33,970 nt of DNA from a virus, in the IMG/VR virus record IMGVR_UViG_3300037337_000084, positions 1 to 33,970 of that record. One strand, written 5' to 3'. Shown piece by piece: positions 3,265 to 18,737 of the stretch. The first letter of the stretch is position 1. Every line of letters starts with the position of its first letter. The position numbers and the translations under genes are program-made. The notes beneath the pieces were generated by a model. It saw only the letters and a program-made list of their open reading frames with translations. It searched no databases and had not been told where the DNA came from.

Positions 3265-4365
3265 TTATTGTTTATAGATTAAAAGTTGGATTTCCTCACC
3301 TATCACAAAAACTGGTATGAAATTGTACGTTGTCCCTGATCGGGTGTAGCCCCCACCCAGCGTAAGTATTTGCCCGTTCCGGGTGATCTGCTCTGGTCTG
3401 TCTGTATTGATTTGGAAAGGTGCTACTATCGAGCTTTGCCCCGCTGTGGCGGTGACCTGTACGAGCGTCGCCCCCATCTCCAAAATAGTAACTAACACAC
3501 GTGCGCGGGTAGCGATTTCAAGAGTGTCAACTTTAGCTGGTGCCGCCTCCGTTCCTTCCCCTGTCAATCCATAACCTAAGATAAAACTTCCGCTCGGACC
3601 GGCCGGACCGGTCAATCCTATTAGTGAAATACTGCCTGTCCAACCAGAAAGGTTTTTAGGGCCGTAAAGTCTTCGCGCATCAAGGTCAAAATAGAAGTCG
3701 CCGACTACACCTAAATTGGTGTTTGGAACGCCAAAGCCGCTTAGAATAAGCGTTCCGTTTTCTCCATCTTCACCGGGTGGTCCTGCATTTCGTTCCACCC
3801 AAAAAGAGGAAGCGCGAAAGAGTATTCCTGTTTCGCCAAATAATGCCAGATCCCCTTCTTTGGGTTCTGTGATTGTTGTAGTGTCTTGTTTTGCAGCAAT
3901 GAGGCTTACCGTCCCGCCTCCACGATTTGTAGCGACTACCGTGTTGTGGATTATTATTTTTGCTTGTAAAAATTGGCTGATCCTTCCGGGATTTGCCGGC
4001 ATAACTGGAATGTAACCCGGTTCTTTGTACTGCCATACTACACCGCCACCAATAGGTGATCTATGTGGAGCCAAACCATCCTGTTGTAGCACTATCACGC
4101 AAAAGTCACGTCCGCTGTTTGCTACCGACGTAACCGTGTAAATGTCCGCTTTTGCGTCAATAAATTTATCCCCAGACTTTATGCTGTCTCCGATAAGACC
4201 ACTCCGGTAAACATCGTAAACGTCTAGCAGTACGCCGGAGTAAGCACCTAATCCAGACGCTGTAAACGTACCGCTTGAAGCGGTTGCCCCTTTCATTGTT
4301 AGCGATTGCGCTAACATCATTTCGCCAAAAAAGCTTAAACAGCAAAGAATTACGTATTTTATCAT
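3265..4365 (-). CDS. Secreted tail-fibre-like protein with short collagen-like segments
   Basis: A 366-residue protein. It begins with a signal-like hydrophobic segment (MIKYVILCCLSFFGEMMLAQ). Around residue 195 there is a collagen-like GPPGEDGENG stretch, and around residue 250 GLTGPAGPSG; between them is a G-DFYFD-RRLYGPK pattern often seen in phage fibre proteins beside collagen-like triplets. Short Gly-X-Y runs usually mark trimeric fibre shafts. The C-terminal about 90 residues are beta-rich. Its ATG overlaps the stop of the upstream fibre gene (ATGA). Family knowledge and position support a fibre or appendage role. The export signal is unusual for a virion protein and is shared with its downstream neighbours. 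Confidence 0.75.
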   Translation of the reverse strand: MIKYVILCCLSFFGEMMLAQSLTMKGATASSGTFTASGLGAYSGVLLDVYDVYRSGLIGDSIKSGDKFIDAKADIYTVTSVANSGRDFCVIVLQQDGLAPHRSPIGGGVVWQYKEPGYIPVMPANPGRISQFLQAKIIIHNTVVATNRGGGTVSLIAAKQDTTTITEPKEGDLALFGETGILFRASSFWVERNAGPPGEDGENGTLILSGFGVPNTNLGVVGDFYFDLDARRLYGPKNLSGWTGSISLIGLTGPAGPSGSFILGYGLTGEGTEAAPAKVDTLEIATRARVLVTILEMGATLVQVTATAGQSSIVAPFQINTDRPEQITRNGQILTLGGGYTRSGTTYNFIPVFVIGEEIQLLIYKQ

Positions 4366-5381
4366 CGTGAGAAAGTAATTTCATAACCTCCGGTAATTGT
4401 TGAAATGCCCGTGAACGTGTCGGTTACCTCGTTTGAAGCTCCGTAGGAACGTGCGTGTATGATCCCATAATCTGCTTCGGGCAGCTCAATTCTTCTACCG
4501 TTTTGCAAATTGAAAATTGTGACGTTTGTACGATCTCTAAAAACTTGCTGCCCAGCCGCGTCAACTTTAGCGTTAATTCGGGTCAAAGCGAAGTTTGCAA
4601 AACTAGCAGCAGTAGCTATTACTGCGCTGATTGTTCCAACAGTAACCGTTGCAGTATTTGCAACAGTTATTATGCCACCGCTCCCGCTAACAACTGGCTC
4701 AATATCACCCTGCCAAGAAACATCTAGTAAGACGCCGCCTACTGTAAATATCTTTCTACCAATCGCTCCTACAACTCCTCCGTTACCGCCCTCTGACGGT
4801 AGATCTTTAATAGCCGTAGCGGATAACCGCGCCGCTCCTTCCAACGTTAGCAGCGCGTCTCTTACGGCCTGTGGCGTTGAATAACCTGATGTAGGCAAGC
4901 CTTTAATGGCCGTCGCTGGCAACCGGTTTTCTAACAATAAGGAAACAAGCGAATCACGGATCTCACCGGGTGACATAGCAGCGTCTCCACCTTCATTGCT
5001 TCCCGCTGCAATCATGTCTTGTACGTCCTTTGGAGAAAAGGTGCGTAGCTCCGATTCAGTTCCTGCTGCCTTTTCTGGCTCAGTAACTTGGGCTACGATT
5101 GATGCATAGAAAGAAGCGATTGAAGCAGCGTTAGGGTTTACTTGCGCTCCTACTTCAAGGTTGGCCAGTTTTGTTTGCTCTGCATCGTCAAAATTGTTTG
5201 TGTCAGGGTTGGCCTCGTACAACGTCCTAACAATTTGCGCTGTTAATTCTACTACCGTAGTCACAAAAAGGGTTCCAACTTCACCTGTTGGTTGTACTAC
5301 CTCATAAATTTCAACAGTTTTTGCATTCCCGTCCTTTGCGGTGGTCTTCGTCTTTGCAGTTGTTTGTTTAAGTTTTGCCAT
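4362..5381 (-). CDS. Tail fibre protein
   Basis: About 339 residues from the ATG at 5381 (MAKLKQ); a GTG one codon earlier is possible but less likely. The N-terminus is Lys/Thr-rich and has no signal peptide, unlike the next four genes. Recognisable fibre motifs follow: F-DAEQTKLANLEVGAQVNP near residues 65-83, a TESELRTFSPKDV motif near 110-122, and two copies of a RL-ATAIK-LP motif near 155 and 190. Similar motifs recur in tail fibres of many phages and in Bacteroidota prophages. The C-terminal about 100 residues are beta-rich. The gene follows directly after the frameshift extension of the preceding gene (TAG at 5386-5384, ATG at 5381), which fits one late operon. Confidence 0.8.
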   Translation of the reverse strand: MAKLKQTTAKTKTTAKDGNAKTVEIYEVVQPTGEVGTLFVTTVVELTAQIVRTLYEANPDTNNFDDAEQTKLANLEVGAQVNPNAASIASFYASIVAQVTEPEKAAGTESELRTFSPKDVQDMIAAGSNEGGDAAMSPGEIRDSLVSLLLENRLPATAIKGLPTSGYSTPQAVRDALLTLEGAARLSATAIKDLPSEGGNGGVVGAIGRKIFTVGGVLLDVSWQGDIEPVVSGSGGIITVANTATVTVGTISAVIATAASFANFALTRINAKVDAAGQQVFRDRTNVTIFNLQNGRRIELPEADYGIIHARSYGASNEVTDTFTGISTITGGYEITFSR

Positions 5382-5383
5382 CA

Positions 5384-5539
5384 CTAAGGATCAAAAGGTT
5401 TTGCTTTAGGCTTTTTCGTTGTCGCCCCAACAGACCCGGAATTAAACCCAAAAGCTTCGGGTTCACCGGCTTCGGCTCCAAAAGCGATGTCTCCATCTAC
5501 CTCTGGGCCAAATGCGGATAGTTCGTTGGAGCTTACACT
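5384..5539 (-). CDS. 51-residue C-terminal extension made by -1 frameshift
   Basis: This reading frame lies -1 to the gene at 5533-6102 and has no ATG, GTG or TTG start of its own; the nearest upstream stop in this frame is a TGA inside the 189-residue gene. It continues as SVSSNELSAFG and so on for 51 codons to TAG at 5386-5384, one base from the next gene. Three AFG-containing units (SAFG, IAFG, EAFG) and a Lys/Pro-rich end suggest real coding rather than chance. If ribosomes slip at the CCCTTTA heptamer, the fusion is 188 + 51 = 239 residues. Without it, about 150 bases would be non-coding in an otherwise fully packed operon. The function of the extension is unknown; tail and capsid proteins of some phages carry such minor extended forms. 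Confidence 0.62.
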   Translation of the reverse strand, partial: SVSSNELSAFGPEVDGDIAFGAEAGEPEAFGFNSGSVGATTKKPKAKPFDP

Positions 5540-5545
5540 AAAGGG
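5475..5545 (-). promoter_or_regulatory. Programmed -1 ribosomal frameshift site (tail-tube-like gene)
   Basis: The heptamer CCCTTTA (5545-5539) lies in phase as C CCT TTA, the X XXY YYZ form, two codons before the zero-frame TAA. After a 6-base spacer comes GCTCCAA (5532-5526), which can pair perfectly with TTGGAGC (5481-5475) across a 44-base loop. Slippery heptamer, short spacer and stem are the usual parts of a bacterial or phage -1 site. The stem energy and any pseudoknot were not computed. Confidence 0.6.
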
Positions 5546-6102
5546 AGGCTGGCAATTGGGACTGTGGCAAATAAGGGCGCGTAAAGCTGTTGTCCAATAA
5601 GGTCCAACTCGTCACGAGCATCTGCTCCTCCGATTTGTCCGCTCCCGTCAAGGTGGCGACCTACGCGCACCAGTTCAACGGGTTCAGAAAACTTGACACC
5701 GTTCCACTCTACCCCTATGACACGTTGTGTATTGTCGTTAAGGTAAATATGGATCAAAATGTCACAGCATTGAATAGCTGCCTGTAAAGAGTTGCGACGT
5801 GCAAAACTTTTGCCTTTCAGGATTGCTTGGAAAATAATTTCGTAAAAACCATTTGCATCGGTATAGGTAAAGTCTGCAAAAGCTGACTTTTTGTCGAACT
5901 GGATTTGTGCGAAAGTTGCACTATTCAGCATAGTGTAGCCTAAAACTTGTTGATTGCTCGCATCAAATTTTAGCGCGTCTGCGGCCATTGCCGTAAAATC
6001 CACGTTTGTGCGACGTGTCCAATACGCTTCAAATACGCCTTTATGTTTTGAACAGCCCAGTTGGTTCACCAACGATTCAAGGGCGCATACAATTTGTGGC
6101 AT
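5533..6102 (-). CDS. Probable major tail (tube-like) protein, zero-frame form
   Basis: A 189-residue protein from ATG at 6102, next after the major capsid gene. It is a compact mixed protein with phrases such as VDFTAMAADALKFD, FADFTYTDANGFYEIIF and GVEWNGVKF; there is no signal peptide or membrane segment. These suggest a self-assembling virion protein, but no named domain was recognised. Position after the capsid protein, size and a -1 frameshift near its stop favour a tail tube, decoration or neck protein; frameshifted minor forms are known for such proteins in, for example, Listeria phage PSA. The zero-frame ends ...LPLV at 5533. Two Cys pairs (near residues 6/18 and 117-118) are noted without assigned meaning. 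Gene certain; function moderate to low. Confidence 0.7.
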   Translation of the reverse strand: MPQIVCALESLVNQLGCSKHKGVFEAYWTRRTNVDFTAMAADALKFDASNQQVLGYTMLNSATFAQIQFDKKSAFADFTYTDANGFYEIIFQAILKGKSFARRNSLQAAIQCCDILIHIYLNDNTQRVIGVEWNGVKFSEPVELVRVGRHLDGSGQIGGADARDELDLIGQQLYAPLFATVPIASLPLV

Positions 6103-6119
6103 GGTAGAATAGATTTAAG

Positions 6120-6149
6120 TTTTAAAGGGCTTGACTAAAAGCCAAGCCC
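6120..6149 (-). terminator. Hairpin with weak T tract between capsid gene and next gene
   Basis: On the minus strand GGGCTTGGC (6149-6141) pairs with GTCAAGCCC (6135-6127), nine pairs including one G-U, with a five-base loop, followed by TTTAAAA. It starts 14 bases after the capsid stop and ends about 24 bases before the next ATG. It could be a partial terminator or a 3' mRNA-stabilising hairpin that lets capsid protein exceed downstream products. The T tract is weak. Confidence 0.5.
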
Positions 6150-6163
6150 CATTAAAGTTTCGG

Positions 6164-7369
6164 TTAGGATGGTGTAGCGTACAAATAGCCGCCGGTGATG
6201 TAGTCCACATCGTTAATCGCTGAGGACATTAAAGAATGTGCCAGCATCTTGTACATTCCGTAGTCTTCGGCATCTTGTGACTGCTGGATCATGATTGCCA
6301 CGTTACCATCCCGGCTTCGTGGAATGTTGGCAAAGTTGCCACCCAATTGGACGTTACCTGAGACGGTAAGGTAAGCAAAATGGGAAGTGCCGGGAAGGTA
6401 CTGGTCATAGACGCCGGTTTGATTAACCGGGATAATTGCCGTTTTGTCAATGTAGTACACCTGAATCGGTGTTTGTCCGGGTGCACTAGGAAACTCACGA
6501 ACCGTGATCCGTGGGTCGTTTTGCACCGCTTGGTTCTTTTGCGCCAGCATCTGGTTGTAAATAGCGCGGTATTCAGGAAGGGCAACCAGCATCAAAGTTT
6601 GAGCTGCTCCATCAAAACCGGGTATTCCTCCCTCGATAATTGCGTCTTGTAGACGTTGCGGAGCTTGCTCTACTAAGGCATCGTAAACCGTCAAAATGTT
6701 GCCCGTGTACTTCTTTCCATCGTTGCTAATATCCGAACTGGAAATTGGCAAAGTGTCAAGATGTGCAAGACCAGCTTCTTGTGACATAGCACGAAGTAGC
6801 GGGATCCAGCCACGACAAGTTGAGGCCGTTTTTACAAAAGCAGATCGGATGTCGGTAGGGGTTGCTGGATTGAAGACAACGGTGTCAACGTTATGCAGCT
6901 TTCCGGCTACAAGTGTCGCAAGATAGCCACGCGTTGCGTTCTCAACTAGGGACCGGGTCAGCATATTGGTAGCTGCAATTCCTGCTGGCTTGAAGCCAAT
7001 GGCAGGACCGCCTGTACTCCAGTTTAGCCACGTCTTAAAGCTGCTATCCATGTACTCATCGTAGCAAAATTGCTGGTTAACCTTTGCAGGGCAGGGCGTA
7101 ATTGTCCTTTGACCCATGGTTACTTTTCCAACCGGATCCCAAGCACACGATTTGTGAGGTTGCCACACAAGCGAATTGCCATGCATGTAGTGCATCACAA
7201 ACTCGTGCTCATCATTCATGGTCATCCACGAATACATTTGAAACAGACGTTGGTAAACGTCAAAGTTGTCGTAGTATTCCGCTGACACCAAAGCGTTGAG
7301 CTTGGTAGTTTCAAAAAACAACGCTCCACGAAGCGCGTTAAATCGGGGTTCAATAAGAAACTGATCCAT
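6164..7369 (-). CDS. Major capsid protein
   Basis: A 401-residue protein that follows a head-maturation protease gene and precedes a probable tail-tube-like gene. Length and position fit an HK97-fold major capsid protein. The sequence is soluble, mixed alpha/beta, without signal or membrane segments. Residues about 110-150 have many aromatic residues and Cys (SCAWDP, TPCPAK, QQFCYDEY); residues about 245-290 hold an AQTLMLVALPEYRAIYNQML segment like the spine/P-domain helices of capsid proteins; the C-terminus ends in a beta-rich ITGGYLYATP. The start is ATG at 7369 after an A-rich run (AAAAAAAA), typical of Bacteroidota initiation regions and likely a strong start. There is a hairpin just after its stop. 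Assignment is by context and general features rather than a recognised signature. Confidence 0.78.
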   Translation of the reverse strand: MDQFLIEPRFNALRGALFFETTKLNALVSAEYYDNFDVYQRLFQMYSWMTMNDEHEFVMHYMHGNSLVWQPHKSCAWDPVGKVTMGQRTITPCPAKVNQQFCYDEYMDSSFKTWLNWSTGGPAIGFKPAGIAATNMLTRSLVENATRGYLATLVAGKLHNVDTVVFNPATPTDIRSAFVKTASTCRGWIPLLRAMSQEAGLAHLDTLPISSSDISNDGKKYTGNILTVYDALVEQAPQRLQDAIIEGGIPGFDGAAQTLMLVALPEYRAIYNQMLAQKNQAVQNDPRITVREFPSAPGQTPIQVYYIDKTAIIPVNQTGVYDQYLPGTSHFAYLTVSGNVQLGGNFANIPRSRDGNVAIMIQQSQDAEDYGMYKMLAHSLMSSAINDVDYITGGYLYATPS

Positions 7370-7421: not shown

Positions 7422-8705
7422 TTAGTATTTTGATGTTACTCCGGTCACTTTTTCAAAACTTGCAACCGTTGCAAATCTTTTCACGTCAGGCTGATTTGCG
7501 TTTACCGCGTTTTCTTTATCGCCGGGAAGGTGGCCAGAGGTCATGGATCCTTTGACCTGCACGATTTGCGCCTCTAACTTACGGTTCTCATCGTTCAAGG
7601 CTTCAATAGTTGTTGCCTGTTCGCCTACATAAGTGCGAAGTTCAACGACTGAATCTGTTAGTTCGTTGATCCTGTCTTCCATTGCCGTAAAACGATCGTC
7701 AACGATCTCAGGAGTAGCGTCGGTAGGCTCGACTTGGGCAACTTCTTTTGTAATGCCGCCCGTCAAAAAATCTTTAAGTCCCATTGGTTGATAATTTTTT
7801 TGGTTTACGTCCGAAGTACTTCGGCCGTTATTTTTGCTGACTAACTCTCTTAGCAGGTCAAACGCTTCCATAAGCGTTCCTACTCCGTCGATAAGTCCTA
7901 TCTCATAAGCCTCTGTGGCAGAAAATAGGTCACCGCTGTAAAGCCGTTCTGTTTGCTCTTTCGTGCCTTTAATTGGCCGGTATGCCTTCATTTCGTCGAT
8001 GAAAGCCTGTGCTTTAACATCAACATATTTTTGAACACGCTCAAAATCGCCGGCTGCAACCTCACGAAAGTCAGCGTTCTTTAGTGTCGATTGTGTAGCG
8101 TAAACGTCTTTGAAGTTTTCTTTTAGTTCTTTGAGCATTTTCATGTCAATCGTTAGGTACGTTCCTAGTGAACCGATTGTTGTCGCTGCGTTAGAACCAA
8201 TGATTGCAACCGCTGGAGCCGCTCCACGAAGTGCCGCTGATGCAAGCATTTGTGTGTAAATAACAACTGGCTTACCCAGACGGTCTTGCACGTCGTTTAC
8301 GGCGTTTTGAAACTCTGTACCTGCGTAGGTTTCACCGCCGCCGCTGTTTACCTCAACCAACAGACCGGCTACGTCTTCGCGGCTGGCCATAGCTCGCATC
8401 TTTTGATTAAGTTGGCGAACTCCGTCAGAACACGCGCCGCCTTCAAGCATCATTGGACCTGTCAGCAAAAGGTGTCCTAACATTAGCTCCTTTGTTTGCC
8501 CATTAGCAAGTGCGGATCCGTTGCTGGCGTCGTAAAACTGTGGGCTGTAAGTAAGGTCACGATTTGCTACAATGTCACGCAAGGGCGTTCCCGTAGCTTT
8601 AGACGCTTTAAGATTTAGGCTGTATTGCATCCAAGCGCGTAGCCCCCAAGCTGCATCTATTTCCCATTCGGATCCCAACAATGTTGTCGTAAGCTTATCG
8701 GCCAT
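7422..8705 (-). CDS. S49 (SppA/ClpP-like) head maturation protease with coiled-coil C-terminus
   Basis: About 427 residues from ATG at 8705 (MADKLTTTLLG); an in-frame GTG at 8753 would add 16 residues. The S49 core is clear: VEVNSGGGETYAG near residues 117-129, then VIYTQMLASAALRGAA, with the Ser of LASAA (about 156) as likely nucleophile, then ATTIGSLGTYL near 175-184. A Lys further on would complete the Ser-Lys dyad. After about residue 310 comes a Glu/Arg-rich coiled coil (DDRFTAMEDRINEL and following), suggesting a fused scaffolding domain that would be cleaved from the prohead, as for lambda C/Nu3-like arrangements. It lies just before the capsid gene, 52 bases apart. Role: cleaves scaffold and capsid during head maturation. 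Confidence 0.87.
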   Translation of the reverse strand: MADKLTTTLLGSEWEIDAAWGLRAWMQYSLNLKASKATGTPLRDIVANRDLTYSPQFYDASNGSALANGQTKELMLGHLLLTGPMMLEGGACSDGVRQLNQKMRAMASREDVAGLLVEVNSGGGETYAGTEFQNAVNDVQDRLGKPVVIYTQMLASAALRGAAPAVAIIGSNAATTIGSLGTYLTIDMKMLKELKENFKDVYATQSTLKNADFREVAAGDFERVQKYVDVKAQAFIDEMKAYRPIKGTKEQTERLYSGDLFSATEAYEIGLIDGVGTLMEAFDLLRELVSKNNGRSTSDVNQKNYQPMGLKDFLTGGITKEVAQVEPTDATPEIVDDRFTAMEDRINELTDSVVELRTYVGEQATTIEALNDENRKLEAQIVQVKGSMTSGHLPGDKENAVNANQPDVKRFATVASFEKVTGVTSKY

Positions 8706-8767
8706 ACCACAAAGAACGTTCAAGGTATTGGTACATGAAAGAGGGAAGATCACTTTAGCGGCCGTTT

Positions 8768-9025
8768 TTAGCCCACCTTCAATTTGTAGTTTTGGGCTAT
8801 CCTTCTTATTGATGACCTCGCTATACCATATTTGCTTTCTATCTGGCGGCTGTTCATTCCTCCTTTTATGTCAGCCAAAATGAATGGTTCAACCATGTGG
8901 CGGTAGCTTATTCCTGCCAGAACTTGCATTACCTCAAAAGGTATTTCCCCGATTGTATCTACCTCGTTTTGTGAAACAGCGTTGTAGAATCGCACCAGCA
9001 TTGTGTTGTACCTCCGTTTGCTCAT
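8768..9025 (-). CDS. Small helix-turn-helix protein
   Basis: 85 residues from ATG at 9025, overlapping the upstream stop (ATGA). The C-terminal third reads GGMNSRQIESKYGIARSS followed by IRRIAQNYKL, the spacing of a helix-turn-helix of the resolvase/terminase-small type. The N-terminal half is helical. It sits between the tail-tip genes and the protease gene, where a DNA-binding protein is not expected. It could regulate head-gene expression, bind DNA during packaging, or be a structural protein with an accidental likeness. Expression with the late operon is likely from the overlap. Confidence 0.65.
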   Translation of the reverse strand: MSKRRYNTMLVRFYNAVSQNEVDTIGEIPFEVMQVLAGISYRHMVEPFILADIKGGMNSRQIESKYGIARSSIRRIAQNYKLKVG

Positions 9026-9225
9026 GTGTCAAGTTTTCCCGTTTTTAAAGCTTCCATTGTCATTGTAACGGTGTCGTTGTAGTCACAACACGGCGTTAAA
9101 TATTTTGGTGAGACACGATGCTCGTTTAAGTGCTCCATTAACCCAATTATGTTTTTTGATTCAAACATAATTCGGGCCTCCTCCTTTTGTTTCTTGTTCA
9201 ATAGGTAGAACCGCCAAACTAGCAT
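9022..9225 (-). CDS. Small unknown protein
   Basis: 67 residues from ATG at 9225, which overlaps the stop of the large tail protein by 7 bases; its own TGA overlaps the next ATG. A start at a second Met (MFESKNIIG, residue 20) is possible. The sequence is charged and helical, with one CC pair (LTPCCDYND). No family was recognised. The overlaps on both sides support real translation in the late operon. Function unknown; a small neck, tail-completion or chaperone role would fit the place. Confidence 0.5.
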   Translation of the reverse strand: MLVWRFYLLNKKQKEEARIMFESKNIIGLMEHLNEHRVSPKYLTPCCDYNDTVTMTMEALKTGKLDT

Positions 9226-11282
9226 ACTATCTGTTTTCCGGTTACTAGCAAAGGAACTTGACTGCCCAAACGGTGATCTTTAACGGCTAAAGGTTGTAGT
9301 TCCCAATCGCCAAATTCTCCACGAATTATGAGTGATTTGCGAAAGTCTATCTTTTGATATGCTTCATCGCCGCCAGTAAGAAACAGCTCGTAGATTGTTT
9401 CAAGGTCTTCCAGAACCGTCTCCCTCCGGTAAAACAAGTTCCAAATGTTAGAAGTAGATCCGGTAAAGCTTATTGGTGTTGAAGGGACGGTAGCTAAAGC
9501 AGAAACGCCTTGGTTTAGGTATGGAATTTGGTTGTAAACGGCTCCCTCAAAACGAAAGACACTATTAAGGACTGCAACAAAACCGTAGTAATTGCATATA
9601 CGAAAACCTAATTCATCTCTTGAATCGTCTCCATCCTCGCTGGCCACAGTCGATCTGGTGAGTGAGACCAAGCGTATTTGACCCGCATCTTCTCCTCCGG
9701 TGTAAGTTCTTTGACCTATGTATGTGGCTTGGAAAATTGTGTTTTCTTCATCATCTTCTTTGTTCAATCCTTTTCCGAGGTCAACTCTACGGTCAAACCT
9801 TCCGAGACCAAGTTCTTCAATTCTTGCGTCTTCTCCCTCCGCAAATTTGTAAACAATGTAACGGTTTCTGTTTTTTGATTTGTTTACCCACCTTATGCTT
9901 TTTGATACGGTTTGCGCTCTAAAGTCTATTGCACCTTCGCCCCTCCGATAAAAGCCTTCAATCCTTTCGCCTGTCCCTTGTGCGGTGTAGTCGTAAGGTG
10001 GTAACATCCTTACTCTTTTGTTGGCGTAGTCGGTGATAAACTTTGCGTTGAAAAGTTGCGCGACACCTAACAAAAACTCCATAGCTGTTAGCTCTGTGTC
10101 TATCACCTTTGCATAAGGGATAAGGTCACCTGTTTGAAGATAGGGCGGATCTGGAGCAAAACGCCAATCCATTTTGTTAACCGTAAAAGGAACGGCATAA
10201 AAGAAGATCCATTGGTAAGAGTCACCTTGCAAAGCGTTCTCATCCAAATGTTTGACAACAAATTGTCGGTTTATTGTGTCAACTGGATGTCCACTAAGTA
10301 GCTCGTCAACTAGAAATTCCTCTACTCCATTTCGCATTTTTAGAAGGAGAACGTTTAATCGTTCAGGGGTATCAAAAGTGGTGTAGGGTGGCAAAGTCAC
10401 GTCGATCGTTACACTTATCTCTAGTGTTATTGGAGTGTTTGCTTGTTCTGTAAGCAGCACAATAGTGTCACGAAGGAAATTAAAATTACGGTTCCATACT
10501 TGCTGGTCGTCTTCTACAACTACCCAAGGAATATCAAACTCAGAGTATTCTTGGAAGAGAATCGGGCCAACTATTTCCAAGTTTGCGTACCCAAATGCTT
10601 TCTTACCTGGGTAACTATACCATTTGTCGGTAGACAAGTATGCCGTATGGTTTGCACCGTCTCCTCGTTCTAAGTGCGGGCAATCTAACTCCCAACCAAT
10701 GTCGCAAAACGCTTTCTCTAAAAGCAGAAAAGAGTTGAACCAAAATCGCAAATCTCTCATAGTAAACTGGCCTATCGGGTTGGGCATTGGTCGGTAAAAC
10801 GCTGGCAAAGGTCTTGCTAACACGTTTTGCTGATCCCAACTATCAATGACTTTGCTGAGTGTATAGTCGAACGTTCCTAGATCTTGATCGTGGAACAAAT
10901 AGTCTTCCAAGTCTTCCACCCAGTCAGCACCAAAAAAGTCAACGTCGTAGGTGTTTGATGCAGGATCGTACTTGAGAACACGTAACCCGGTTATCGGTAC
11001 ATTCAAGCCATTCATTTGCACCTCTATTGCTAGCCGCTTTGTTTTAGATTGTCCGTTGGGCGCACCGAAGCTTGATAGCAAAAAGTCGTTTTTTGTTGTT
11101 TTGGGAAGTGCTGCAGAAAGTGCTGCTTCTTGAGCAACAGAAAGAAAATCACCAAGCCGATCAACTGCTTTAGTCAAGCTTAAAGAAAAGTCCTCTGGCA
11201 GGTCAAGATATACCCGACTGTTAATATCTCCGTAAAGATCGACCGAAACTTTGCGCGGCAATGTCAACCTGACTGTTATCAT
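9219..11282 (-). CDS. Large tail protein, probably tail tip / baseplate hub
   Basis: 687 residues from ATG at 11282, overlapping the upstream stop (ATGA). The protein is beta-rich and acidic with many aromatic residues, no signal peptide and no catalytic motif noticed. Segments such as TGLRVLKYDPASNTYDVDFFG near residue 105 and a TAMEFLLGVAQLFNAKF helix near residue 405 followed by RVRMLPPYDY resemble hub-type domains of tail tip proteins in Bacteroidota phages. It is the second gene after the tape measure, where distal-tail and tip proteins are normally encoded. Role inferred: tail tip structure at the distal end. It is not portal-like (portals are mainly helical). Confidence 0.6.
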   Translation of the reverse strand: MITVRLTLPRKVSVDLYGDINSRVYLDLPEDFSLSLTKAVDRLGDFLSVAQEAALSAALPKTTKNDFLLSSFGAPNGQSKTKRLAIEVQMNGLNVPITGLRVLKYDPASNTYDVDFFGADWVEDLEDYLFHDQDLGTFDYTLSKVIDSWDQQNVLARPLPAFYRPMPNPIGQFTMRDLRFWFNSFLLLEKAFCDIGWELDCPHLERGDGANHTAYLSTDKWYSYPGKKAFGYANLEIVGPILFQEYSEFDIPWVVVEDDQQVWNRNFNFLRDTIVLLTEQANTPITLEISVTIDVTLPPYTTFDTPERLNVLLLKMRNGVEEFLVDELLSGHPVDTINRQFVVKHLDENALQGDSYQWIFFYAVPFTVNKMDWRFAPDPPYLQTGDLIPYAKVIDTELTAMEFLLGVAQLFNAKFITDYANKRVRMLPPYDYTAQGTGERIEGFYRRGEGAIDFRAQTVSKSIRWVNKSKNRNRYIVYKFAEGEDARIEELGLGRFDRRVDLGKGLNKEDDEENTIFQATYIGQRTYTGGEDAGQIRLVSLTRSTVASEDGDDSRDELGFRICNYYGFVAVLNSVFRFEGAVYNQIPYLNQGVSALATVPSTPISFTGSTSNIWNLFYRRETVLEDLETIYELFLTGGDEAYQKIDFRKSLIIRGEFGDWELQPLAVKDHRLGSQVPLLVTGKQIVC

Positions 11283-17039: not shown

Positions 17040-17740
17040 GGGCAATTTACGTTTGCCAACGCTGTCACGGTTGGAGTGTCATATCTGAAAGATAAATTCG
17101 CTGGCGCACAAAAGTCAAAGACCACGCTTGTAACAAGACCTCGGAGGTCTGGGTAGTTCCCCCATCTTGAAAACCTATCTGGCTCGTCAACAAGGTAAGG
17201 CTCCAAACGATCAATAAGATTAAGCAAATGACCTGCACCTTTTAAGTGCTCCATCCTTCCTTCGCTTAACCACTCATAGGTAGTAATCTCTCCCTCTCTA
17301 CGGACTTCATAAAGGGCGTAAGTAATTAGCTCTCTCATAAAAGCACGTCCGAGCCGGTACAGGTTAGTAGTCACCATCGTTCCTGATCGGGTAGATCCTG
17401 TCTCCGGATCTTCACAACTCAGTTTGTCGATAAACAAAAAACCAACTGTAAGCCGGTCGCTGTTTTCCCCATACCCGGAAGGTGTAGGTGCTAACAGCTC
17501 AGCAAAAATAACTGGAAACGCTGCTTTAATTTCGTCGGGGTTCGCTCCACCGTTAACCCAAGGTCTGCTGTGGAACTCGCCACGAACAAAGTCGGCGTAA
17601 GTATAGCCAAAGGACGCGCTACTCAAATTTGGGTCAACGTCCACTCTTCCGTAGGTTTGCGGCTGTAACCCAACCTCGTAATCAAAGTCAATGTATATTT
17701 GACGGCTGATTGAAAATATGTCTTCCAGCTTTAAGCTCAT
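17033..17740 (-). CDS. Tail/neck-region structural protein, unknown family
   Basis: 235 residues from ATG at 17740, overlapping the stop of the frameshift extension (ATGA). It is a soluble mixed protein; an Arg-rich helical part lies near residues 125-165 and the last residues are NVNCPC, with three Cys in the last 60 residues. No catalytic motif or membrane segment was seen. It sits between the probable assembly chaperone and the neck protein, so a tail terminator, minor tail or connector role is plausible. It was not recognised as a portal: it is too short and too beta-rich. Confidence 0.55.
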   Translation of the reverse strand: MSLKLEDIFSISRQIYIDFDYEVGLQPQTYGRVDVDPNLSSASFGYTYADFVRGEFHSRPWVNGGANPDEIKAAFPVIFAELLAPTPSGYGENSDRLTVGFLFIDKLSCEDPETGSTRSGTMVTTNLYRLGRAFMRELITYALYEVRREGEITTYEWLSEGRMEHLKGAGHLLNLIDRLEPYLVDEPDRFSRWGNYPDLRGLVTSVVFDFCAPANLSFRYDTPTVTALANVNCPC

Positions 17741-18033
17741 ACTCGTGCCATTTTTAAAGTTACGAACGATACAAAAGTCTCAAATTCAGCGTAGAAAGCG
17801 TTCTCATGTTCGGATAGTTGGGCTAAAGTAAACCAGCTTTTTTTCCCAGAAAACCAACCTTCCTCTATCGCTATTTGGTAGAAGATCCTCCAACCTGTGA
17901 CGGCCCAAGCCTCCTCTGCTACTTCTTTACGCGCTTTATCAACTTGCGTACCACGCCTGAACGTTGGTTTAGGCGGACCCATAAAGAAAAACCTGTACGC
18001 GGATTTGCCCTGCAATGCTGCAAGGCGTTGAGA
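17737..18033 (-). CDS. T-like extension of tail assembly chaperone, read by -1 frameshift
   Basis: This frame, -1 to the upstream gene, continues from the T9 run as SQRLAALQGKSAYRFFFMG for 98 codons to TGA at 17737. It has no ATG near the overlap: the earliest candidates are a TTG at 18015, inside the loop of the frameshift hairpin, and an ATG at 17982. The sequence WRIFYQIAIEEGWFSGKKSW (near its middle), followed by LAQLSEHENAFYAEF, resembles the T-domain of tail assembly chaperones, where a Trp-helix-Gly-Trp pattern is common. The fused product would be 235 + 98 = 333 residues. Role inferred: the G-T fusion that gathers tail tube subunits around the tape measure, as in lambda gpGT. Confidence 0.7.
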   Translation of the reverse strand, partial: SQRLAALQGKSAYRFFFMGPPKPTFRRGTQVDKARKEVAEEAWAVTGWRIFYQIAIEEGWFSGKKSWFTLAQLSEHENAFYAEFETFVSFVTLKMARV

Positions 18034-18737
18034 AAAAAAAAGCGTAAGGATAAAACACTATCCATTTTCAAAGACGAAAATAGCTCTCTTCGCGTAGCTA
18101 TAAACTTATCCCGCTCACCCGGATTTGCGGGTAGTTGCTCACCTTGTTTTCTTACCAGTATAGCGAACTCCGTCAGCCCAAGGGTGAACTCTATATTTCC
18201 AATGTCTTTTGGCATGGCACTTTTAAACGCTTCTCCGGCACGTCTTTGATATTCCATAACCTCTATACCCTCACCCATAGATAAAGGTCGGTCGGCCAAG
18301 ATCCTGCCTGTTTTTTCAAGTTTGAGAAAGAACTTTTGACCGCCATGCTTTAGCTTGAATGTCTTCGGGATCATAGCCGGCACGTAAGATTGTACGGTTG
18401 TGACAAGGTGAGCGTAAAGCCTGATAGCGGATAACTCGGATCCAATAGCGAAAACAAAGCCATTCTCTAGCAATAAAGCACCATCGTCACCTGGGACTGT
18501 CTCCGGCACGTCTGAGACGTTAGGCCCGTATATAGTCGCCAGCATATCCAAAAGCTCTTTTGCTTTACGCAAGCCATATTGGTCGTTAGAAGTGTCCTCT
18601 TCCTTGGTCGGTGGAGTTAGGAATATCGCTTCGCTGCTTTTGAAGTCGCACCAACTGCTAAAAAGAATATCGGAAGCGTCTGTTGGTATTGGAAGGTCAC
18701 GGCTTTGGCCGTCGATCTCATAGGTTACTTTTATCAT
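17919..18737 (-). CDS. Probable tail assembly chaperone, G-like zero-frame form
   Basis: 272 residues from ATG at 18737 (ATGA overlap upstream). N-terminal residues about 1-60 are a small beta/alpha unit (VTYEIDGQSRDLPI); residues about 60-190 are mixed, with a CDFKSSEAIFL motif near 31-41 of the kind found in Bacteroidota and T4-like chaperone families. Codons 233-235 are TTT TTT TTT; zero-frame readers then add a basic 37-residue tail (NALQHCRANPRTGF and beyond) to the stop at 17919. Ribosomes slipping -1 continue into the next frame. It lies two genes before the tape measure, close to the normal site of G/GT genes. The alternative is an unrelated unknown gene. Confidence 0.6.
   Translation of the reverse strand: MIKVTYEIDGQSRDLPIPTDASDILFSSWCDFKSSEAIFLTPPTKEEDTSNDQYGLRKAKELLDMLATIYGPNVSDVPETVPGDDGALLLENGFVFAIGSELSAIRLYAHLVTTVQSYVPAMIPKTFKLKHGGQKFFLKLEKTGRILADRPLSMGEGIEVMEYQRRAGEAFKSAMPKDIGNIEFTLGLTEFAILVRKQGEQLPANPGERDKFIATRRELFSSLKMDSVLSLRFFFLNALQHCRANPRTGFSLWVRLNQRSGVVRKLIKRVKK
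18007..18041 (-). promoter_or_regulatory. Programmed -1 ribosomal frameshift site (tail assembly chaperone)
   Basis: Nine Ts (18041-18033) give the heptamer T TTT TTT in phase at 18039-18033. After a six-base spacer CTCAAC, GCCTTGCA (18026-18019) pairs with TGCAGGGC (18014-18007), eight pairs including one wobble, with a GCAT loop. This is the textbook slippery-spacer-hairpin layout. The caveat is that a miscounted homopolymer (10 Ts instead of 9) would also join the frames. Confidence 0.72.

Follow-up and report, generated by a model that had tools for sequence, protein, structure and literature searches.

The gene directly after the major capsid protein gene of this phage is identified, by homology and by the predicted fold of its family, as the gene of the tail tube protein, and -1 slippage at an in-phase C CCT TTA heptamer close to its stop codon probably yields a minor, C-terminally extended form of that protein. 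A programmed shift would explain together the presence of the heptamer, the intact repeat of the extension and its lack of decay. The window is the whole stretch of DNA that was analysed, namely the 33,970 nucleotides of IMG/VR record IMGVR_UViG_3300037337_000084. Its closest relatives are L255 (IMGVR_UViG_3300037320_000125) and G047 (IMGVR_UViG_3300028217_000215).

Identification of the tail tube gene

The tail tube (major tail protein) gene occupies 5533..6102 of the minus strand (start ATG at 6102, stop TAA at 5535-5533), and its zero-frame product has 189 amino acids; the assignment combines the open reading frame, homology and the fold of a homologue. Upstream lies the major capsid protein gene (6164..7369, minus strand), whose ortholog in L255 (2617-3846) was matched over its full length with an E value of 1.8e-94. 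The next gene after the tube gene (4362..5381, minus strand) is an open reading frame considered tail-fibre-like on weak PHROG tail-fibre matches; it starts at ATG 5381 (more likely) or GTG 5384 and abuts the stop of the -1 extension described below. The capsid and tube genes are separated by a stretch (window 6103-6163) with a terminator-like hairpin, GGGGCTTGGCTTTTAGTCAAGCCCTTT as written on the minus strand.

When the tube, capsid and protease proteins were used directly as queries against viral contigs, phages and genomes, no match was returned; the terminase and the HK97-gp10-like neck protein g16497 led to the relatives. MT835630 was set aside as a relative because only the terminase is common to it and the window. 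In all relatives reached by either route a homologous gene follows the capsid gene, and the tube gene stands directly after the protease and capsid genes in the window, L255, G047, G009, G025, G027 and G011. The window tube protein aligns through residues 2-186 with its counterparts in L255 (E 7.5e-54) and G047 (E 2.5e-52), and phmmer matched it to the product of L093 5354-6019 (E 1.2e-4), a gene also located directly after the capsid gene.

A profile built from nine tube proteins found no sequence relative in the PDB. The tail-tube fold was shown on the homologue L116, modelled with AlphaFold from 25 sequences in an alignment that included the window protein (pLDDT 79.4); the window protein modelled alone gave a pLDDT of 39, which is of low confidence. 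The L116 model is a tail-tube/Hcp beta-sandwich with a flanking helix, and its structure matches include lambda gpV (8k36, Z 9.8), the 80alpha protein (Z 9.8), the Mu tube (Z 9.7) and SPP1 gp17.1 (6yeg, Z 9.4). Since the model of the L116 family has the tail-tube fold and its genes stand beside the capsid gene in the relatives, the gene, which the sequence-only reading had left unnamed, can be assigned to the tail tube. A role in head decoration or as a head-tail adaptor, the latter being the annotation of a homologue in BO1, was rejected on the fold result. The phage is a siphophage (long-tailed), probably with a Bacteroidota host.

Two further observations concern gene content. In phages of Bacteroides ovatus the capsid gene is followed by a tandem pair of paralogous tube-like genes (L114 9941-10474 and 10479-11009; L115 5983-6516 and 6521-7051), which are annotated “Head-tail adaptor” and “signal peptide protein” in BO1 (L114) and hypothetical in BK735P3 (L115); homologues match PHROGs 19091 and 21217 (unknown function) and 19979 (virion structural protein), three PHROGs that may represent families of tail tube proteins. 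A portal gene is missing from the window (noted at 1-397), so the contig has probably lost its left end; in L255 the fibre genes are followed by a subtilisin-like S8 protease gene (8230-9708, Pfam E 3.6e-53) and then by the portal gene (9718-11088).

Slippery site and coding signal of the -1 frame

The tube gene ends in ...GTC CCA ATT GCC AGC CTC CCT TTA GTG TAA, in which the slippery heptamer C CCT TTA (5539..5545, minus strand) stands two codons before the zero-frame stop. When the last A of the heptamer is read again, the following codons become AGT GTA AGC TCC ..., and the frame stays open for 51 codons (5387..5539, minus strand; SVSSNELSAFGPEVDGDIAFGAEAGEPEAFGFNSGSVGATTKKPKAKPFDP) up to a TAG at 5386-5384. 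Both elements had been described from the letters alone, as an in-phase CCCTTTA and as a startless 51-codon frame ending one base from the next gene, and both were confirmed by a check of sequence and phase. The complete open -1 stretch comprises 75 codons, of which 24 overlap the tube gene and 51 lie past the slip.

In-phase XXXYYYZ sites number 36 in the 10,785 codons of the genome, so that 6.8% of 24-codon windows hold one, and for a given Pro-Leu pair the chance of C CCT TTA itself is 1.3%; the in-phase heptamer alone is weak to moderate evidence. A heptamer near the stop, followed by a gap longer than 100 nt that a long -1 frame fills, was found in only two genes, those of the tube and of the tail chaperone. 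The latter is a tail assembly chaperone pair (17737..18737, minus strand) with its own -1 frameshift at a run of nine T near 18039; the gap is 178 nt, and conservation of the T-run and of both frames in L184 and L186 supports this second frameshift. At the tube site no long homopolymer occurs, from which we infer that transcriptional slippage can be rejected there.

Could the -1 frame be open by chance and carry no coding meaning? An open frame by itself is weak evidence, and the 153 bases of the extension stay open in 11% of their dinucleotide shuffles; but the codon score of the extension (0.207 bits/codon, the 76th percentile among true coding windows in the genome) was reached by only 0.2% of the open shuffles and by 0/527 windows in either shifted frame, and the frame fills an otherwise unexplained gap of 151 nt between the tube gene stop and the next start codon. 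Chance is barely credible as an explanation.

The translated extension consists of three AFG-containing decapeptides followed by a Lys-rich end, ...KKPKAKPFDP; it is acidic first and Lys-rich after, and it is probably flexible. The AFG repeats that the sequence-only reading had pointed out are thus three in number, at a spacing of exactly 10 residues, and their codons (GCA/GCT/GCT TTT GGC/GGA/GGG) show none but synonymous differences in the -1 frame. The extension had no match in Pfam, no meaningful match among PDB sequences and no significant similarity to anything searched, and no AFG-repeat protein was found among 7,002 ORFs of the relatives. The view that the -1 frame is genuine coding sequence, belonging at the C-terminus of the tube protein, is supported.

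RNA structure and candidate stimulators

The stimulatory structure of a programmed -1 frameshift commonly lies about 5-9 nt downstream of the slippery site, or is replaced by an upstream Shine-Dalgarno-like element. A perfect 7-bp stem, GCTCCAA/TTGGAGC (5475..5532, minus strand; spacer of 6 nt, GTGTAA; loop of 44 nt), is a candidate stimulator and is present as first described; it is not, however, the dominant predicted fold, since it is the minimum-energy structure (-17.2 kcal/mol) only in a 64-nt segment. Once more downstream sequence is included it is displaced by a stronger hairpin of about -28 kcal/mol (approximate limits 5469..5514, minus strand), which starts about 22-26 nt after the heptamer and is too distant for a canonical stimulator. 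The 89-nt downstream fold reaches -31.2 kcal/mol (z -3.36), and about 1.4% of the coding windows of the genome fold as well.

No Shine-Dalgarno-like element was seen by eye upstream of the heptamer. Such a stimulator is not to be expected here, because Shine-Dalgarno sequences are rare in this genome (3/23 genes). Their scarcity is typical of Bacteroidota.

Comparison with relatives and alternative explanations

L255 and G047 are near-identical mutually, and their tube proteins stand at 43-44% to the window protein; the protease, capsid and tube genes are common to all three, and G047 shares the tail module too. The tube proteins of L255 and G047 (217 and 214 aa) are extended past the conserved domain in frame as ...VPIADMIAAATPALIGNPLSTSAATFDAKPKVKTAKS, this C-terminal extension being about 30 residues long and ending in ...FDAKPKVKTAKS, and a terminator-like hairpin follows the gene. 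In the window, the zero frame has the conserved domain, three codons and the stop, and the tail is in the -1 frame, where the slipped product would read PLSVS at the place at which L255 and G047 read PLSTS. Taken over its whole length, the extension is not significantly similar to either in-frame tail (p 0.13 and 0.30). As the L255 and G047 proteins continue in frame past the domain, a C-terminal tail at this point appears to belong to this tube protein lineage, and every tube subunit of L255 and G047 should carry it.

The tube genes of L255 and G047 contain neither the heptamer nor AFG repeats. In 17 distant relatives (L116 group) and in L090, the tube protein stops at the end of the domain, a terminator-like hairpin follows, and no heptamer and no -1 ORF was found; a search for the same frame arrangement in IMG/VR, GTDB genomes and INPHARED returned no sequence, although close records may have been hidden from it. 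Alignment of relatives had been put forward at the outset as a test of the shift, and it gave no support from conservation, the heptamer being conserved in none of them. This does not refute frameshifting in the window phage, since the closest relatives encode an extension at this point by ordinary reading.

Separately, frame breaks that are absent in L183 or L255 interrupt every one of the capsid, tape measure, neck and distal tail genes of the G047 record (L186/L251-L253), which suggests that they are indel errors in that record.

The in-frame tails of the closest relatives are the starting point of two explanations that need no new biology but require the heptamer to be there by chance (1.3-6.8%). 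By the first, which we consider unlikely, an ancestral in-frame extension as in L255 and G047 underwent a real frameshift mutation, the loss of one base just after CCT TTA; the tail would be dispensable, only the short tube protein would be made, and the extension would be a recent relic. The correspondence of P-L-S-[T]-S in the relatives with P-L-S-V-S in the slipped product is what such a loss would leave, no stimulator is found at the ideal position, and SPP1 is viable without its own tube extension (PMC8718954). A relic is, on the other side, difficult to reconcile with a break falling exactly on a canonical heptamer, and with an extension that retains its full coding signature and a 10-residue repeat in which AFG changes are synonymous only. 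Nor is any other gene with an orthologue broken: prot, MCP, g9219, g11279 and g16497 all have window orthologues of full length.

The same integrity bears on the second explanation, an error in the contig, which is quite improbable. With one base missing or two inserted near 5537-5545, the true gene would be single-frame, as in L255 and G047, and all tube subunits would be tailed. Several genes are split in G047, a contig of the same group, so indels do occur in such records; the window itself shows no other split gene, the site has no long homopolymer (CCC and TTT only), and coincidence of an error with an in-phase heptamer is unlikely.

It was also considered that the extension might be a separate small gene, expressed by reinitiation or from a non-standard start and not as a fusion. 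Distant relatives have a gene of 84-201 aa directly after the tube gene, and a small gene frequently separates the tube and portal genes in relatives; in the nearest relatives, though, the tail is fused in frame and no small gene is found there, and the extension shows no significant similarity in the searches reported above. The small gene of the distant relatives was tried as its ancestor and dropped for want of a significant match. Neither ATG, GTG nor TTG occurs in the 75-codon -1 frame, which offers only one ATT and one ATC, and with Shine-Dalgarno sequences as scarce as they are in this genome, independent initiation of the extension is unlikely. A separate gene is thus a very remote prospect.

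Proposed mechanism

Under the programmed -1 shift, most ribosomes would end at the TAA at 5535 and release the 189-aa tube subunit, and a minority would slip back by one base on C CCT TTA, with tRNA-Pro moving from CCT to CCC and tRNA-Leu from TTA to TTT. The slipped ribosomes would add 51 residues, to give a subunit of 239 aa at an efficiency that is itself part of the prediction. The two forms would co-assemble in the tube, so that the longer one would be incorporated in the virion, where its extension would decorate the exterior of the tail and might act in surface interaction or in tube stability. The exterior position is proposed because the tube fold has its C-terminus outside in known tails, namely those of lambda, T5 and SPP1 (PMC8718954). 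The sequence-only reading had suggested a decoration of the tail or the neck; with a tail tube gene the tail exterior becomes the natural reading, and the neck is unlikely for a tube protein.

A more tentative scenario, which we regard as possible but doubtful, is that a single lineage of siphophages of Bacteroidota type switched its tube appendage from an in-frame form carried by every subunit, as in L255, to a -1 frameshifted form carried by a minority, and that the frameshifted version then grew into an acidic AFG-decapeptide repeat, which would serve as a dosed surface decoration, for example for weak binding to the host surface.

Comparison with known recoded structural proteins

A close parallel is SPP1, whose tube gene ends in a +1 shift site, CCCUAA; the shift joins an FN3 domain of 87 residues to gp17.1, giving gp17.1* at a 3:1 ratio, and the extension is dispensable (PMC6316719, PMC8718954). 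The tube fold is the same (Z 9.4 to the family model), and the form predicted for the window would likewise be a minor, C-terminally extended one that arises by recoding late in the tube gene; the two cases differ in that the window has a predicted -1 shift at C CCT TTA and a repeat-rich extension of 51 residues. The latter is too short for an Ig/FN3 fold, and no Ig/FN3 domain was found in it by Pfam and PDB sequence searches.

The Listeria tsh gene is recoded by a +1 shift at CCC_UGA (PMC5009743). The analogy with PSA Tsh that had been drawn from the sequence is apt in so far as the window gene is a tail tube gene; it does not extend to the direction, the PSA Tsh shift being +1 and not -1 (PMC5009743), and Tsh of PSA, A118 and A500 belongs to phages of Firmicutes. 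The -1 direction is found in Lactobacillus phage A2, where it occurs in a major head component and in a tail protein (PMC5009743), although the A2 head extension is Ig-like. In T7 gene 10A/10B a major structural protein is lengthened at its C-terminus by a non-Ig extension through a -1 frameshift (PMC5009743); the protein there is the capsid protein of a podovirus, here a tail tube protein. Recoding of this kind has precedents in a few other phages, from which the window case, as predicted, would differ in direction, lineage and type of extension.

The tails of L255 and G047 offer another comparison: they belong to the orthologous tube protein in the same gene order, and are placed at the same point with a Lys-rich end, but are about 30 residues long, in frame, and free of heptamer and AFG repeats. 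In the review of Atkins, the in-frame or out-of-frame placement of Ig domains is attributed to chance (PMC5009743). If the shift is confirmed, minor-form tube recoding, described in the cited papers for phages of Firmicutes, would gain an example from a lineage of Bacteroidota type, in which the shift is -1 and the added segment is short and non-Ig, and the window phage and L255, in which a tail is read in frame, would form a natural pair for asking whether such tails do better at full or at low dosage.
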